Shown: positions 8,305 through 43,587 of the stretch, in pieces
Position numbering within the stretch: position 1 is the first letter of the stretch
Layout of the letters: each line of letters starts with the position of its first letter
DNA from: Sandaracinus amylolyticus
Lineage (GTDB): Bacteria > Myxococcota_A > Polyangia > Polyangiales > Sandaracinaceae
Direction of reading: 5' to 3'
DNA length: 64,000 nucleotides
NCBI RefSeq assembly: GCF_021631985.1
Contig: NZ_CP070225.1
Location: 1,612,001-1,676,000, forward strand
Notes under the pieces: model-generated
Databases searched by the model: none
Told to the model about the DNA's origin: nothing
What the model saw: the letters and a program-made list of their open reading frames with translations, nothing else
Made by a program: the position numbers and the translations under genes

Positions 8305-8782
8305 CGCGCGCGTCGCGCTCACCGGCATCGTCGCGCTCGTCCTCCTCGTCCCAGAGCTCGTCCCACACGTCGTCGTCGTCGTCCTGCGTCTCCGCGTGCA
8401 CGCCGAGGCGCTCGAGCGCCTCCTCGAGCCCGAGCGCGGTCTGGATGCCCTCGAGCTCGATGCCCATGTCGAGCAGCGTCGTGACCACGTCGGGCCCGAG
8501 CCCGCAGAGCAGCGTCTCCGCGCCCATCAGGCGCGCGGCCCGCGCGATGCGGCTCACCACCGAGCACAGATGGCTGTCGAGCAGCCACACGCCCGACGCG
8601 TCGATCACGAGCCCGCGGGCACCGCGATCGCGCAGCCGCGCGAGCAGCCGCTCGCGCAGCTCGTCCATCTGCGAGTCGCGGATCTCGCCCTGGAGCGGGA
8701 CCACCAGGTTCCCCCAGAGCTCGAGGATCGGGATCGTCGTCGTCGCAGATCGATCGAAGCTCGTCGTCGTCCTCGGCCTCAC
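8297..8782 (-). CDS. rsbS: Single-domain STAS protein, RsbS-like stressosome subunit
   Basis: The 161-residue product is one STAS domain (about residues 12-125) with a very acidic tail (ETQDDDDDVWDELWDEEDE). The segment WLLDSH keeps the serine (Ser70) that corresponds to phosphorylated Ser59 of Bacillus subtilis RsbS. It is followed by the family pattern ARLMGAETLLCGLGPDVV and LLDMGIELEGIQTALGLEEAL. RsbS forms the stressosome core with RsbR and binds RsbT until phosphorylated. The acidic tail is longer than in the Bacillus protein. The GTG start at 8782 shares a 4-bp overlap (GTGA) with the preceding kinase gene. Confidence 0.85.
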   Translation of the reverse strand: MRPRTTTSFDRSATTTIPILELWGNLVVPLQGEIRDSQMDELRERLLARLRDRGARGLVIDASGVWLLDSHLCSVVSRIARAARLMGAETLLCGLGPDVVTTLLDMGIELEGIQTALGLEEALERLGVHAETQDDDDDVWDELWDEEDERDDAGERDARDA

Positions 8783-33011: not shown

Positions 33012-33560
33012 TCAGCGCGCGACCGCCTGCCAGTGGCCTTCGTAGAAGACCCACTGCCCGTTCTGCACTTCCCAGCGCGCGTCGACCCACACGTAGCCGA
33101 CGCGCGGCTGGTCCCAGTGCCCGTCGACCCACACGTACTGCGCGCCGTTCCACTGCCAGTAGCCCTCGACCCACACCGCCTCGGTGCGCGGCGGGGGCGG
33201 GCGCACCACGACGCGCGGGCGCGGCGGCGCCTGGCGCACGACGATGCGCGGCGCGCGCGGCGGCGCCACCACGATCGACGCCCGCGGCGGCGTGGGCGCG
33301 GTCACCACGACCGAGGCGCGCGGCGGCGTCGGCGCCACGACCACGACGCGCCCATCGCGTCGATCCTCACGACGCTCGCGTCGGTCCTCGCGCGCCTCGC
33401 GTCGATCCTCACGACGCTCGCGACGGTCCTCGCGACGCTCGCGACGATCCTCGCGACGCTCGCGTCCGCCGCGCTGTGCGCTCGCCGCGTCGGGCAGCGC
33501 CAGGAGCATCGCGGCTCCGAGGAGCGCGACGATCACGGCACGCAGCTTCGACATGGTCAT
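33012..33560 (-). CDS. Secreted RRERRED-repeat/YxWxxGxW-repeat protein
   Basis: The 182-residue product has a signal peptide ending DAASAQ (near residue 29), then five to six copies of a seven-residue RRERRED-type repeat (about 32-70), a Val/Pro-rich linker (PTPPRASVVV, PPRAPRIVV) and a C-terminal set of aromatic repeats: VWVEGYWQWNG, YVWVDGHW, YVWVDARW and FYEGHW. These match the YxWxxGxW repeat family of bacterial surface or outer-membrane proteins of unknown function. AGGAGG eight bases before ATG 33560 fixes the start. The charged repeat is coded by a 21-bp DNA repeat, which could expand or contract. Confidence 0.8.
   Translation of the reverse strand: MTMSKLRAVIVALLGAAMLLALPDAASAQRGGRERREDRRERREDRRERREDRREAREDRRERREDRRDGRVVVVAPTPPRASVVVTAPTPPRASIVVAPPRAPRIVVRQAPPRPRVVVRPPPPRTEAVWVEGYWQWNGAQYVWVDGHWDQPRVGYVWVDARWEVQNGQWVFYEGHWQAVAR
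33352..33470 (-). repeat. 21-bp tandem repeat coding RRERRED units
   Basis: Within the YxWxxGxW-type gene, about five copies of a 21-bp unit follow each other with small changes, each coding one seven-residue RRERRED-like unit. A period that is a multiple of three keeps the frame whatever the copy number. Confidence 0.75.
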
Positions 33561-39664: not shown

Positions 39665-41590
<1,926 letters not shown>

Positions 41591-41635
41591 TGCGCCCTCG
41601 TCGCTCGCGAGAGCGTGATCTCGAGGACGATCTGG

Positions 41636-41793
41636 GTGCTGACCGTGAGGCTTCGGTGTGCACGTTCGCTCGAGGGCGCGCTGGCGCGCGCTCGCGCTCA
41701 CCGCTGTTTCGTTTGAGTCTCGTCGCGCGGGCCGCTCGTGGTGGGGTTGCTTCGCGGTGAGCGGATCTCGAGTCCCCGCGGATCGTGCTCGGA
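41636..41793 (+). repeat. Left arm of a long imperfect inverted repeat
   Basis: About 158 bp, from GTGCTGACCGTGAGGCTTCG to GATCGTGCTCGG, recur inverted at 42789-42919 (131 bp). The left arm carries an insertion of about 27 bp that the right arm lacks; apart from that, most positions match. The arms face inward and enclose the zinc-ribbon gene, two palindromes and the tandem array. A 14-bp sequence GTGATCTCGAGGAC also appears twice near this arm (about 41616 and 41797). I see no target-site duplication at the outer ends. Confidence 0.8.
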
Positions 41794-41851
41794 GGCGTGA
41801 TCTCGAGGACACCCGATCGCGTGCGCGCGGACGCTGAGCTAGTGAGCGGAC

Positions 41852-42385
41852 GTGTTGATCGCGCAGGAGCACGACGGATTCGATTCGCCCGGCGGCTCGG
41901 TGCGGTGCGACATCTGCGGCGCGCCCGGGGAGTGCAATGCGTTCCTGGTGCGAGTGCGCGTGCCGGGAGGGCGGGTCGACGTGCAGGCGACGCACTGCGA
42001 CCCGTGTGACGTGTACTTCCGCGTGCGCCGCGCACGACGAGTGCAGGCGATCGCGATCACCGTGCTCGCGGCGATGCTCTTCGCGCCGATCGCGGGGCTC
42101 GCGTCGAGCGTGTTCGGCGCAGCGGCGCCGATCGTCTCGGCGGTGCTGGTGATCGCGCTGATCGTCACCGCGATCGCCCGCGCTGCGACGTGGCACGACC
42201 GCTTGCGTCAGCGGATGGGTGACCGGTTGCTCGACGATCTCGCGCGCGGAGTGCCCGAGGTGCAGGGCGCGCTCGGCTCGCGCGACGTGCAGCTCTTCGC
42301 GTCTCTCCCGCACGACGCAGCCCCGAAGACGACGCTCCGCGCCGTGCGCCAGCGCGCCGAGCGGACGCGCGCGCTCCCGAACTGA
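41852..42385 (+). CDS. Small zinc-ribbon membrane protein inside the repeat-bounded block
   Basis: The 177-residue product starts at a GTG. Residues 19-53 contain two Cys pairs, CDICGAPGEC and later CDPCDVYF, spaced like a zinc ribbon. Two membrane helices follow (about 70-92 and 95-120), then a cytoplasmic helical tail (about 125-177). I cannot name a family; the layout resembles small membrane proteins with a metal-binding head. It lies between the two arms of the inverted repeat, with about 58 bp between the left arm and its start. A 20-bp palindrome begins 16 bp after its stop. Confidence 0.6.
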   Translation: MLIAQEHDGFDSPGGSVRCDICGAPGECNAFLVRVRVPGGRVDVQATHCDPCDVYFRVRRARRVQAIAITVLAAMLFAPIAGLASSVFGAAAPIVSAVLVIALIVTAIARAATWHDRLRQRMGDRLLDDLARGVPEVQGALGSRDVQLFASLPHDAAPKTTLRAVRQRAERTRALPN

Positions 42386-42400
42386 CCGGAGGTTCGCGCG

Positions 42401-42461
42401 GATCCGCAAGGTTGCGGATCGATCACCTCGGCGGGTGGGCAGATCCGGAAGGTTACGGATC
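42401..42461. repeat. Two related 20-bp palindromes
   Basis: The first (42401-42420) is GATCCGCAAGGTTGCGGATC, with 9-bp arms around GG. The second (42442-42461) follows the pattern GATCCGGAA-GG-TTACGGATC, with one arm mismatch. They sit 22 bp apart, directly before the 42-bp array. Same design and slight divergence suggest copies of one protein-binding site or RNA hairpin. Confidence 0.7.
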
Positions 42462-42466
42462 CGACA

Positions 42467-42716
42467 GCTTCGAGGGTCACCCAGTTGATACGACTTATCG
42501 ATTCGGGAGGCTCGAGGGTCACCCAGTTGATAAGACTTATCGATTCGGGAGCTTCGAGGGTCACCCAGTTGATAAGACTTATCGATTCGGAGCTTCGAGG
42601 GTCACCCAGTTGATAAGACTTATCGATTCGGGAGCTTCGAGGGTCACCCAGTTGATAAGACTTATCGATTCGGGAGCTTCGAGGGTCACCCAGTTGATAA
42701 GACTTATCGATCGGGA
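42467..42716 (+). repeat. Six tandem 42-bp units, about 50% GC
   Basis: Units start at 42467, 42509, 42551, 42592, 42634 and 42676. They are 42 bp long except units 3 and 6, which are 41 bp. They are nearly identical; unit 2 differs at its first few bases, and unit 1 has GATACGACTTATC where units 2-6 read GATAAGACTTATC. Each contains the dyad GATAAGACTTATC and is about half GC, far below the surroundings. The 41-bp units break any reading frame, so it is not a coding repeat. There are no spacers, so it is not a CRISPR array. It looks like an iteron-type binding array. Confidence 0.85.
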
Positions 42717-42788
42717 CCCGAGCACGCCGCGCGAGCACTCGAGGCAGCGCCCCCGAGCACGACTCCGTGGGGATTCGTGATCAGCTCC

Positions 42789-42919
42789 CCGAGCACGATC
42801 TGCGGGGACTCGAGATCCGCTCACCGCGAAGCAACCCCACCACGAGCGGCCCGCTCGCCGAGACGCAAACGAAACAGCTGCGAGCGCGAGCGTGCACACC
42901 GAAGCCTCACGGTCAGCAC
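42789..42919 (-). repeat. Right arm of the inverted repeat
   Basis: This is the reverse complement of the left arm at 41636-41793, without the extra 27 bp in the left arm. It is preceded by three copies of CCCGAGCACG (42717, 42752, 42788) spaced 35-36 bp apart, so the border itself has sub-repeats. It ends 12 bp before the stop of the convergent roadblock-like gene. Confidence 0.8.
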
Positions 42920-42930
42920 TCGCGCCGACT

Positions 42931-43587
42931 TCACCTGCGCTCCCAGCGGTCCTCTTCCACGTGGTGCACCAGCGTCAGCTCTTGGCCGCTCTCGCTCCGC
43001 ACCATGAAGCACACCACGCGCGCGCCGTCGTCTTCTTCGATCCAGCGGCCCAGCACGTCACCGACCTTCGTGCGCTCCGCGCCCATCCAGAACGCGCTCG
43101 GCGCGTACGGCCAGCCCTTCGCCACGCGCACTTCCACGCGCACCCGCGCGTCGATCGCGGGCTCCCATCGCGGCGTGACCTCGCCGCTCTCGACGCGCAG
43201 CTTCCGCACCGCGAGCTCGATCGTCTCGGTGAGCAGGCTCGGGATCCCCATCGCGAGCGTCACGACGACCAGCAGGTACTCGTCGGTCACCCGGCGCACC
43301 ACGATGTCGCGCTCGCTGCCCTGCACGTGGATCGCCCAGGGCTCTCCGGCGCGGCGCTTCGTCGTCTCGCGCACCTCGCTCGTGACCACGAGCATGTGCG
43401 CCGCGATCACCTTCGCGTCGAAGGGCGGCAGCGACGAGCAGTAGTCGATGCACTCGCCCTCCGAGTCGACGAACACCACCGCGAGCACTCCAGGGACACA
43501 GTGCAGCACGCTCCGCAGGATCGGCGTGAAGCTGCTCTCGTCGAGATCCCGACGCGACTCGACCGGGACGCTCGACGGCAGGCTCAC
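42931..43587 (-). CDS. Roadblock/LC7-like protein
   Basis: A 218-residue protein. Residues 10-125 look like a roadblock/longin-type domain: LRSVLHCVPGVLAVVFVDSEGECIDYCS is its usual first hairpin. A VTSEVRETTKR segment and the strand pair RDIVVRRVTDEYLLVVVTLA follow. Roadblock proteins often act as partners of small GTPases such as MglA in myxobacteria, but no GTPase is nearby. The C-terminal part (about 130-218) is an additional beta-rich module that ends HHVEEDRWERR. The GTG start at 43587 shares four bases with the upstream gene's stop. Confidence 0.65.
   Translation of the reverse strand: MSLPSSVPVESRRDLDESSFTPILRSVLHCVPGVLAVVFVDSEGECIDYCSSLPPFDAKVIAAHMLVVTSEVRETTKRRAGEPWAIHVQGSERDIVVRRVTDEYLLVVVTLAMGIPSLLTETIELAVRKLRVESGEVTPRWEPAIDARVRVEVRVAKGWPYAPSAFWMGAERTKVGDVLGRWIEEDDGARVVCFMVRSESGQELTLVHHVEEDRWERR

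Follow-up and report, generated by a model that had tools for sequence, protein, structure and literature searches.

BIMEs (REP or palindromic units) often sit at gene ends, and a role there in limiting read-through or shielding the 3′ end has been proposed for enterobacterial BIMEs. Eukaryotic centromeric satellites are dyad-rich and undergo fast sequence turnover while their position and dyad symmetry are kept, and type III toxin-antitoxin loci of the toxI type carry tandem structured repeats of about 35–45 nt. REPs are described as usually numbering more than 100 per genome, and some enterobacterial REPs as containing GATAAG (PMC2817692).

The array described here lies in a 64,000-nucleotide stretch (hereafter, the window) of the genome of Sandaracinus amylolyticus (G000), on the 10,754,065-bp chromosome of a two-contig 10.96-Mb assembly and ~4 Mb from dnaA. 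An earlier note on the window had described six tandem 41/42-bp units with a GATAAG-type dyad and low GC, and this description was borne out: TRF called an array with period 42, 6.0 copies, 96% matches and a score of 467 (a period-125 call for the same array scored 471), far above the next-best tandem array of the window at 189, and GC at 42467–42716 is 50.8% against 72.4% for the window. The unit anchors lie 42, 42, 41, 42 and 42 bp apart and the final unit is one base short, so the two 41-bp units that the note had counted are real. Since such units break any reading frame, and our own gene caller placed no gene within the array, it is non-coding, as had been proposed, and a coding array was ruled out. 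The 13-bp core GATAAGACTTATC is exact in units 2–6, with GATACGACTTATC in unit 1; the pattern GATAAGNCTTATC has five sites in the whole 10.96-Mb genome, all five within the window array, and the reversed control pattern has none. This core is the center of a longer imperfect dyad, AGTTGATAAGACTTATCGATT, with eight Watson-Crick and two G-T pairs.

The six-unit block is nonetheless only part of the feature. A dyad scan placed the start at 42400, with two extra units bearing another dyad, A1 (GATCCGNAAGGTTNCGGATC), so that the whole array spans 42400–42716, with two alternating kinds of dyad at intervals of about 21 bp. The second element, B, which the note had also missed, lies midway between the main A dyads, and the phasing claimed for a single dyad is thereby sharpened to two kinds with centers ~20–21.5 bp apart. 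Related arrays have a B that forms a dyad in its own right, B1 (ACCACCCCGGAGGGTGGT) or B2 (AGCTTGGTGAAGCT); the window array mostly carries B3 (AGCTTCGAGGGTCACC), which resembles half of B2 joined to half of B1 and pairs poorly. Folded as RNA and compared with 100 dinucleotide shuffles, 42400–42716 gave a z-score of −10.0 on the + strand and −4.2 on the − strand.

The upstream 177-aa gene has no confident Pfam family, and its ortholog in the sister genome (L072 10461–11003) shares 91% DNA identity. A scan of 41500–43100 turned up neither a T-tailed terminator nor a sigma-70 promoter. The ~200-bp intergenic repeat found on both sides of the array (Table 1) has a conserved core, GGGCCGCTCGTGGTGGGGTTGCTTCGCGG, and occurs in this genome at roughly twenty sites or more (L014–L027 included); in the sister species, three near-tandem copies adjoin the array's ortholog (L072 8902–9527, 11135–11346), one copy folds at −107 kcal/mol, and no Rfam family matched it. 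Other tandem repeats called by TRF at 33186–33466 of the window have periods of 36, 21 and 42, all divisible by three, which suggests coding repeats.

Table 1. Features at and around the window array (window coordinates), and the arrays assigned to each locus.
Feature	Position	Strand	Description	Basis
Array block 1	42400..42461	+	A1 dyads GATCCGCAAGGTTGCGGATC and GATCCGGAAGGTTACGGATC flanking a B1-like dyad CACCTCGGCGGGTG	Dyad scan; best covariance-model match in this genome, 71.9 bits
Array block 2	42466..42716	+	Six 41/42-bp units, each an asymmetric B3 (AGCTTCGAGGGTCACC type) plus an A2 dyad (GATAAGACTTATC core)	TRF, unit spacing, covariance-model matches at 42482, 42566 and 42649
Putative gene, 177 aa	41852..42385	+	Stops 15 bp before the array	Own gene caller
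Convergent gene, 218 aa	42931..43587	−	Weak Roadblock/LC7 match, below cut-off; 97% aa identity with G001 protein	Gene caller, Pfam
Dispersed ~200-bp intergenic repeat	41590..41840	+	Copy upstream of array	
~200-bp repeat, inverted copy	42745..42919	−	Downstream of array; inverted pairs I1 (151 nt, 84%) and I2 (34 nt, 97%)	
Locus 1			Window array (G000) and L072 (G001)	
Locus 2			L068 (G000) and L071 (G001)	
Locus 3			L069 (G000) and L073 (G001)	
Locus 4			L070, G001 only	

Judged by its sequence, the window feature belongs to a small family of mosaic palindromic arrays in Sandaracinus. BLAST returned one more related array in G000 and others in G001, the 10,327,335-bp genome of a sister species in the same genus. 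We trained a covariance model on 33 windows drawn from six arrays (alignment A1, 33 of 45 ABA windows, those dropped being near-identical repeats or array edges) and ran it against 96 genomes, which gave seven arrays in the two Sandaracinus genomes, at 1.654, 2.599 and 10.132 Mb in G000 (three arrays) and at 1.560, 4.947, 5.856 and 8.118 Mb in G001 (four arrays). The 2.599-Mb array was outside the training set and is syntenic with the 4.947-Mb array of G001, providing independent confirmation of the family. All 22 sites of the A1 core pattern (9 in G000, 13 in G001) fall inside arrays, and G002 has none. Units of 41–42 bp and an A-B spacing of ~21 bp recur in all arrays, which hold roughly five to nine units each, and most carry a main dyad A and a second dyad B per unit; different A and B sequences occur together in one genome under the same architecture. 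In G000 the 13-bp dyad is confined to the window array, and related arrays carry other dyads. The note had set freely varying copy number against its proposal, and such variation is partly seen, with about 8 units in the window array and 7 in its ortholog, and 7 and 9 at locus 2.

Beyond the genus, nine covariance-model matches in eight genomes of the order (E 1e-4 to 1e-2) were single and weak and showed no such array on reading, nor did a weak BLAST match in G028. In a species collection that may omit near relatives of the host, the A1 dyad hit four records from unrelated genera, one site each and none tandem, at about the chance rate, and a longer A1 pattern had no match; two pattern scans of viral contigs, from which near-host records may be missing, gave none. 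There was likewise no match in 72,556 plasmid records, no phage match and no matching Rfam family. Our literature search found no description of these arrays; the authors of the S. amylolyticus genome ran CRISPRFinder (PMC5010890).

Set beside BIMEs as characterized in PMC2817692, the arrays are similar in being intergenic mosaics with regular spacing, variable unit number and hybrid arrays, and in keeping palindromes despite base changes. They form intergenic clusters of regularly spaced imperfect palindromes, and complementary changes preserve the palindrome in 15 of 22 pairs among related rows. They differ in that the Y1/RAYT transposase (PF01797) was found in neither Sandaracinus genome by a search that scored in control genomes including E. 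coli, excluding a REP with RAYT, and in abundance, with just three arrays in G000 and four in G001 and 9 and 13 exact A1 cores. Unlike BIMEs, they show no GTAG-type box, and two differing dyads alternate at about 21 bp where BIMEs repeat a single unit in alternating orientation. We take the GATAAG shared by the window dyad and some enterobacterial REPs as coincidence. By transposase and abundance the arrays thus fall outside the REP/BIME class, but they may work like one of its members.

Gene order, determined with our own simple gene caller, assigns the seven arrays to four loci, all chromosomal and all between genes. Three of the four are common to both species, and the six flanking genes at loci 1–3 are 84–98% identical at the DNA level. 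The contents of the arrays follow these positions poorly. Compared by 42-mers, with a shuffled control at 0.46 and identities inside single arrays of 0.74–0.94, the window array scores 0.53 against its ortholog (0.59 in the reverse comparison) and 0.76 against the locus-4 array of G001; the locus-3 orthologs score 0.51 and 0.52, and the G001 locus-3 array scores 0.88 against the G001 locus-2 array. Ortholog arrays at loci 1 and 3 are thus little more alike than shuffled DNA, yet resemble arrays elsewhere; the locus-2 orthologs are still alike (0.85 and 0.70). Positions thus persist while contents get replaced, in part by sequence common to other loci, through an exchange whose direction and mechanism we infer from the resemblance.

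The ACP and RCC1 genes at locus 4 converge in both species, with an array between them in G001 and a 45-bp spacer, forming one hairpin of −33.2 kcal/mol, in G000. The difference is no clean insertion, as the G001 array replaces most of the 45-bp spacer. A gene flanking locus 1 is present in six further genomes of the host's family; three of these (G003, G004 and G005) have no array 3′ of that gene, while for G007 the side read was the opposite one, and contig ends cut off G002 and G008.

The surroundings of the loci share no gene, and the neighbors are unrelated: a Pfam search of 10 neighbor proteins gave mixed families, none of them concerned with replication, partition or a toxin, and a second set of 10 had no PADLOC match at E 0.1. 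With dnaA as a proxy for the origin, arrays at loci 1–3 run along the replication fork and that at locus 4 against it, so no orientation rule applies. Just upstream of the locus-2 array of G001 lies an unrelated GC-rich tandem array of 8.7 copies with a 49-bp period (L071 9538–9960), represented in G000 by only two copies (L068 near 8600–8700), and the DUF6210 gene directly upstream of that locus is intact in G000 (L068 8748–9158) and reduced to its two ends in G001 (L071 about 9500). Accessory genes beside the locus-3 array (L069 9785–11958, L073 6551–8557) differ between the species, some with low third-position GC (0.69–0.81), which suggests a gene-exchange hot spot; two of them had no Pfam match.

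The dyads retain pairing through this turnover, and the pairing differs between strands. Under a structure given by hand, 84.4% of 724 cells pair, against 26–50% in slid controls; only 10 of 500 shuffles reach the observed number of pairs with changes on both sides, and the covariation score exceeds all 500, although these shuffles overstate the significance because the aligned rows are related. RNAalifold, unaided, predicted no pairs on the − strand and six on the + strand, of which four show changes on both sides; the six are inner A stems only, which counts against a fold into a full train of hairpins. RNA folding energy is lower on the + strand in six of seven arrays and equal in the seventh, and four arrays have a clearly lower z on + (+/−: −8.1/−3.7, −11.1/−6.4, −13.8/−8.4 and −8.3/−3.1), with z about equal in L072 and L073 and slightly reversed in L070. 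Distinct helices hold 48 G-T and 18 A-C cells, with G-T ahead in all seven arrays, in a count over the 26 of 54 model-aligned rows that lie within arrays on the array strand, with a model trained on that same strand; a strand-neutral dyad finder gave a weaker bias, 66 to 37, with L072 reversed (5 to 7) and L068 tied (6 to 6). The wobble and fold biases lean towards a single-stranded fold, most likely in RNA.

For four of the seven arrays, a coding sequence in the same direction, intact or as a remnant, ends 15 to about 80 bp upstream, and the arrays at loci 1 and 4 lie between convergent genes; the locus-3 array, near or upstream of gene starts, counts against a placement at gene ends. Given gene-end placement and the single hairpin at the array-free locus 4, the functional explanation with the fewest assumptions is a train of hairpins where genes end; the poor pairing of B3 in the window and the lack of a T-tailed terminator or sigma-70 promoter in the stretch scanned weigh against it. 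We tentatively favor, at well below even confidence, a mosaic of palindromic units, BIME-like and specific to the genus, that would work as an RNA hairpin train at gene ends. The array would be transcribed mostly as a 3′ extension of the gene ending just upstream, and its + strand would fold into a train of hairpins or into paired A dyads capped by B. The hairpins would serve as a structural gene end that limits read-through between convergent genes and shields the 3′ end, while units would multiply through unequal exchange and, given the resemblance between loci, probably spread from one to another through recombination.

The strongest rival to hairpin-train RNA is neutral satellite DNA with template switching, a possibility we also regard as real but short of probable. 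Here the arrays would be neutral or selfish products of slippage and unequal exchange, and template switching in hairpins, which copies one arm onto the other, would keep the palindromes, so that paired changes need no selection; such switching is reported to create, repair and maintain stems (PMC8794818). It would account for contents whose turnover far outpaces that of the flanking genes while they stay homogeneous inside arrays (orthologs at 0.51–0.59 at loci 1 and 3), for the presence or absence of an array at locus 4, and for B3, whose B2-like and B1-like halves are what would be expected if symmetric B forms arise by arm copying. It accounts less readily for the three of four positions common to both species, for the constancy of the 41–42-bp units and ~21-bp spacing across arrays, and for a wobble bias that sits on one strand.

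Phased double-stranded protein sites, the kind of function first suggested for the dyads, are unlikely. A dimer would read A dyads 41–42 bp, or four turns, apart on one face of the helix, organizing the chromosome or pausing polymerase, in keeping with center spacings near two helical turns, the ATC...AAG of both A1 and A2 half-sites and the low GC. Several dyad sequences share the architecture in the same genomes, so a single reader of GATAAG...CTTATC fails for the family, and single-protein iterons were ruled out on that ground; a protein reading the main dyads alone is the form of the claim that survives. Against any such protein stand the differing A and B sequences within one genome, the lack of solitary A1 sites outside arrays, the absence of a common gene among the loci and a strand bias that it leaves unexplained.

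Plasmid iterons, a partition site, a CRISPR-like array or a type III antitoxin repeat, suggested by tandem units of similar size in those systems, are very improbable for arrays on a chromosome at four loci beside unrelated genes, without variable spacers, plasmid or phage matches or an Rfam family. The iteron or partition site raised by the earlier note is not supported, given the chromosomal contig, the distance from dnaA, three further loci beside unrelated genes and the empty plasmid search, with no replication or partition gene among the scanned neighbors. CRISPR was rejected because whole units repeat, A and B both being common to units with no unrelated spacers between. Unlike toxI-type repeats, the loci have no partner toxin gene: flanking genes differ by locus, and neither the 10 Pfam-scanned nor the 10 PADLOC-scanned neighbors include a toxin family. 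A CsrA-type sponge RNA was also discarded, B1 loops having GGA but A1, A2 and B2 loops lacking it.

One further reading, which we consider improbable, is a bacterial satellite in which selection acts on the architecture, a pair of palindromes spaced about 21 bp, whatever the sequence, at fixed positions whose content is overwritten from other loci; it would be either a genus-specific hairpin-train RNA or a DNA element following the logic of centromeric satellites. The likeness to those satellites, in turnover with kept position and dyad symmetry, is an analogy only, as these arrays are bacterial, a few hundred bp long and without a link to segregation that we could find. In two complete sister genomes, position, spacing and symmetry persist in seven small arrays while sequence turns over, and a reading of one protein and one motif, drawn from one array, can mislead. 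The arrays make it testable whether palindromic repeats in bacterial spacers are selected, as RNA ends or for DNA binding, or are made by mutation and recombination alone.
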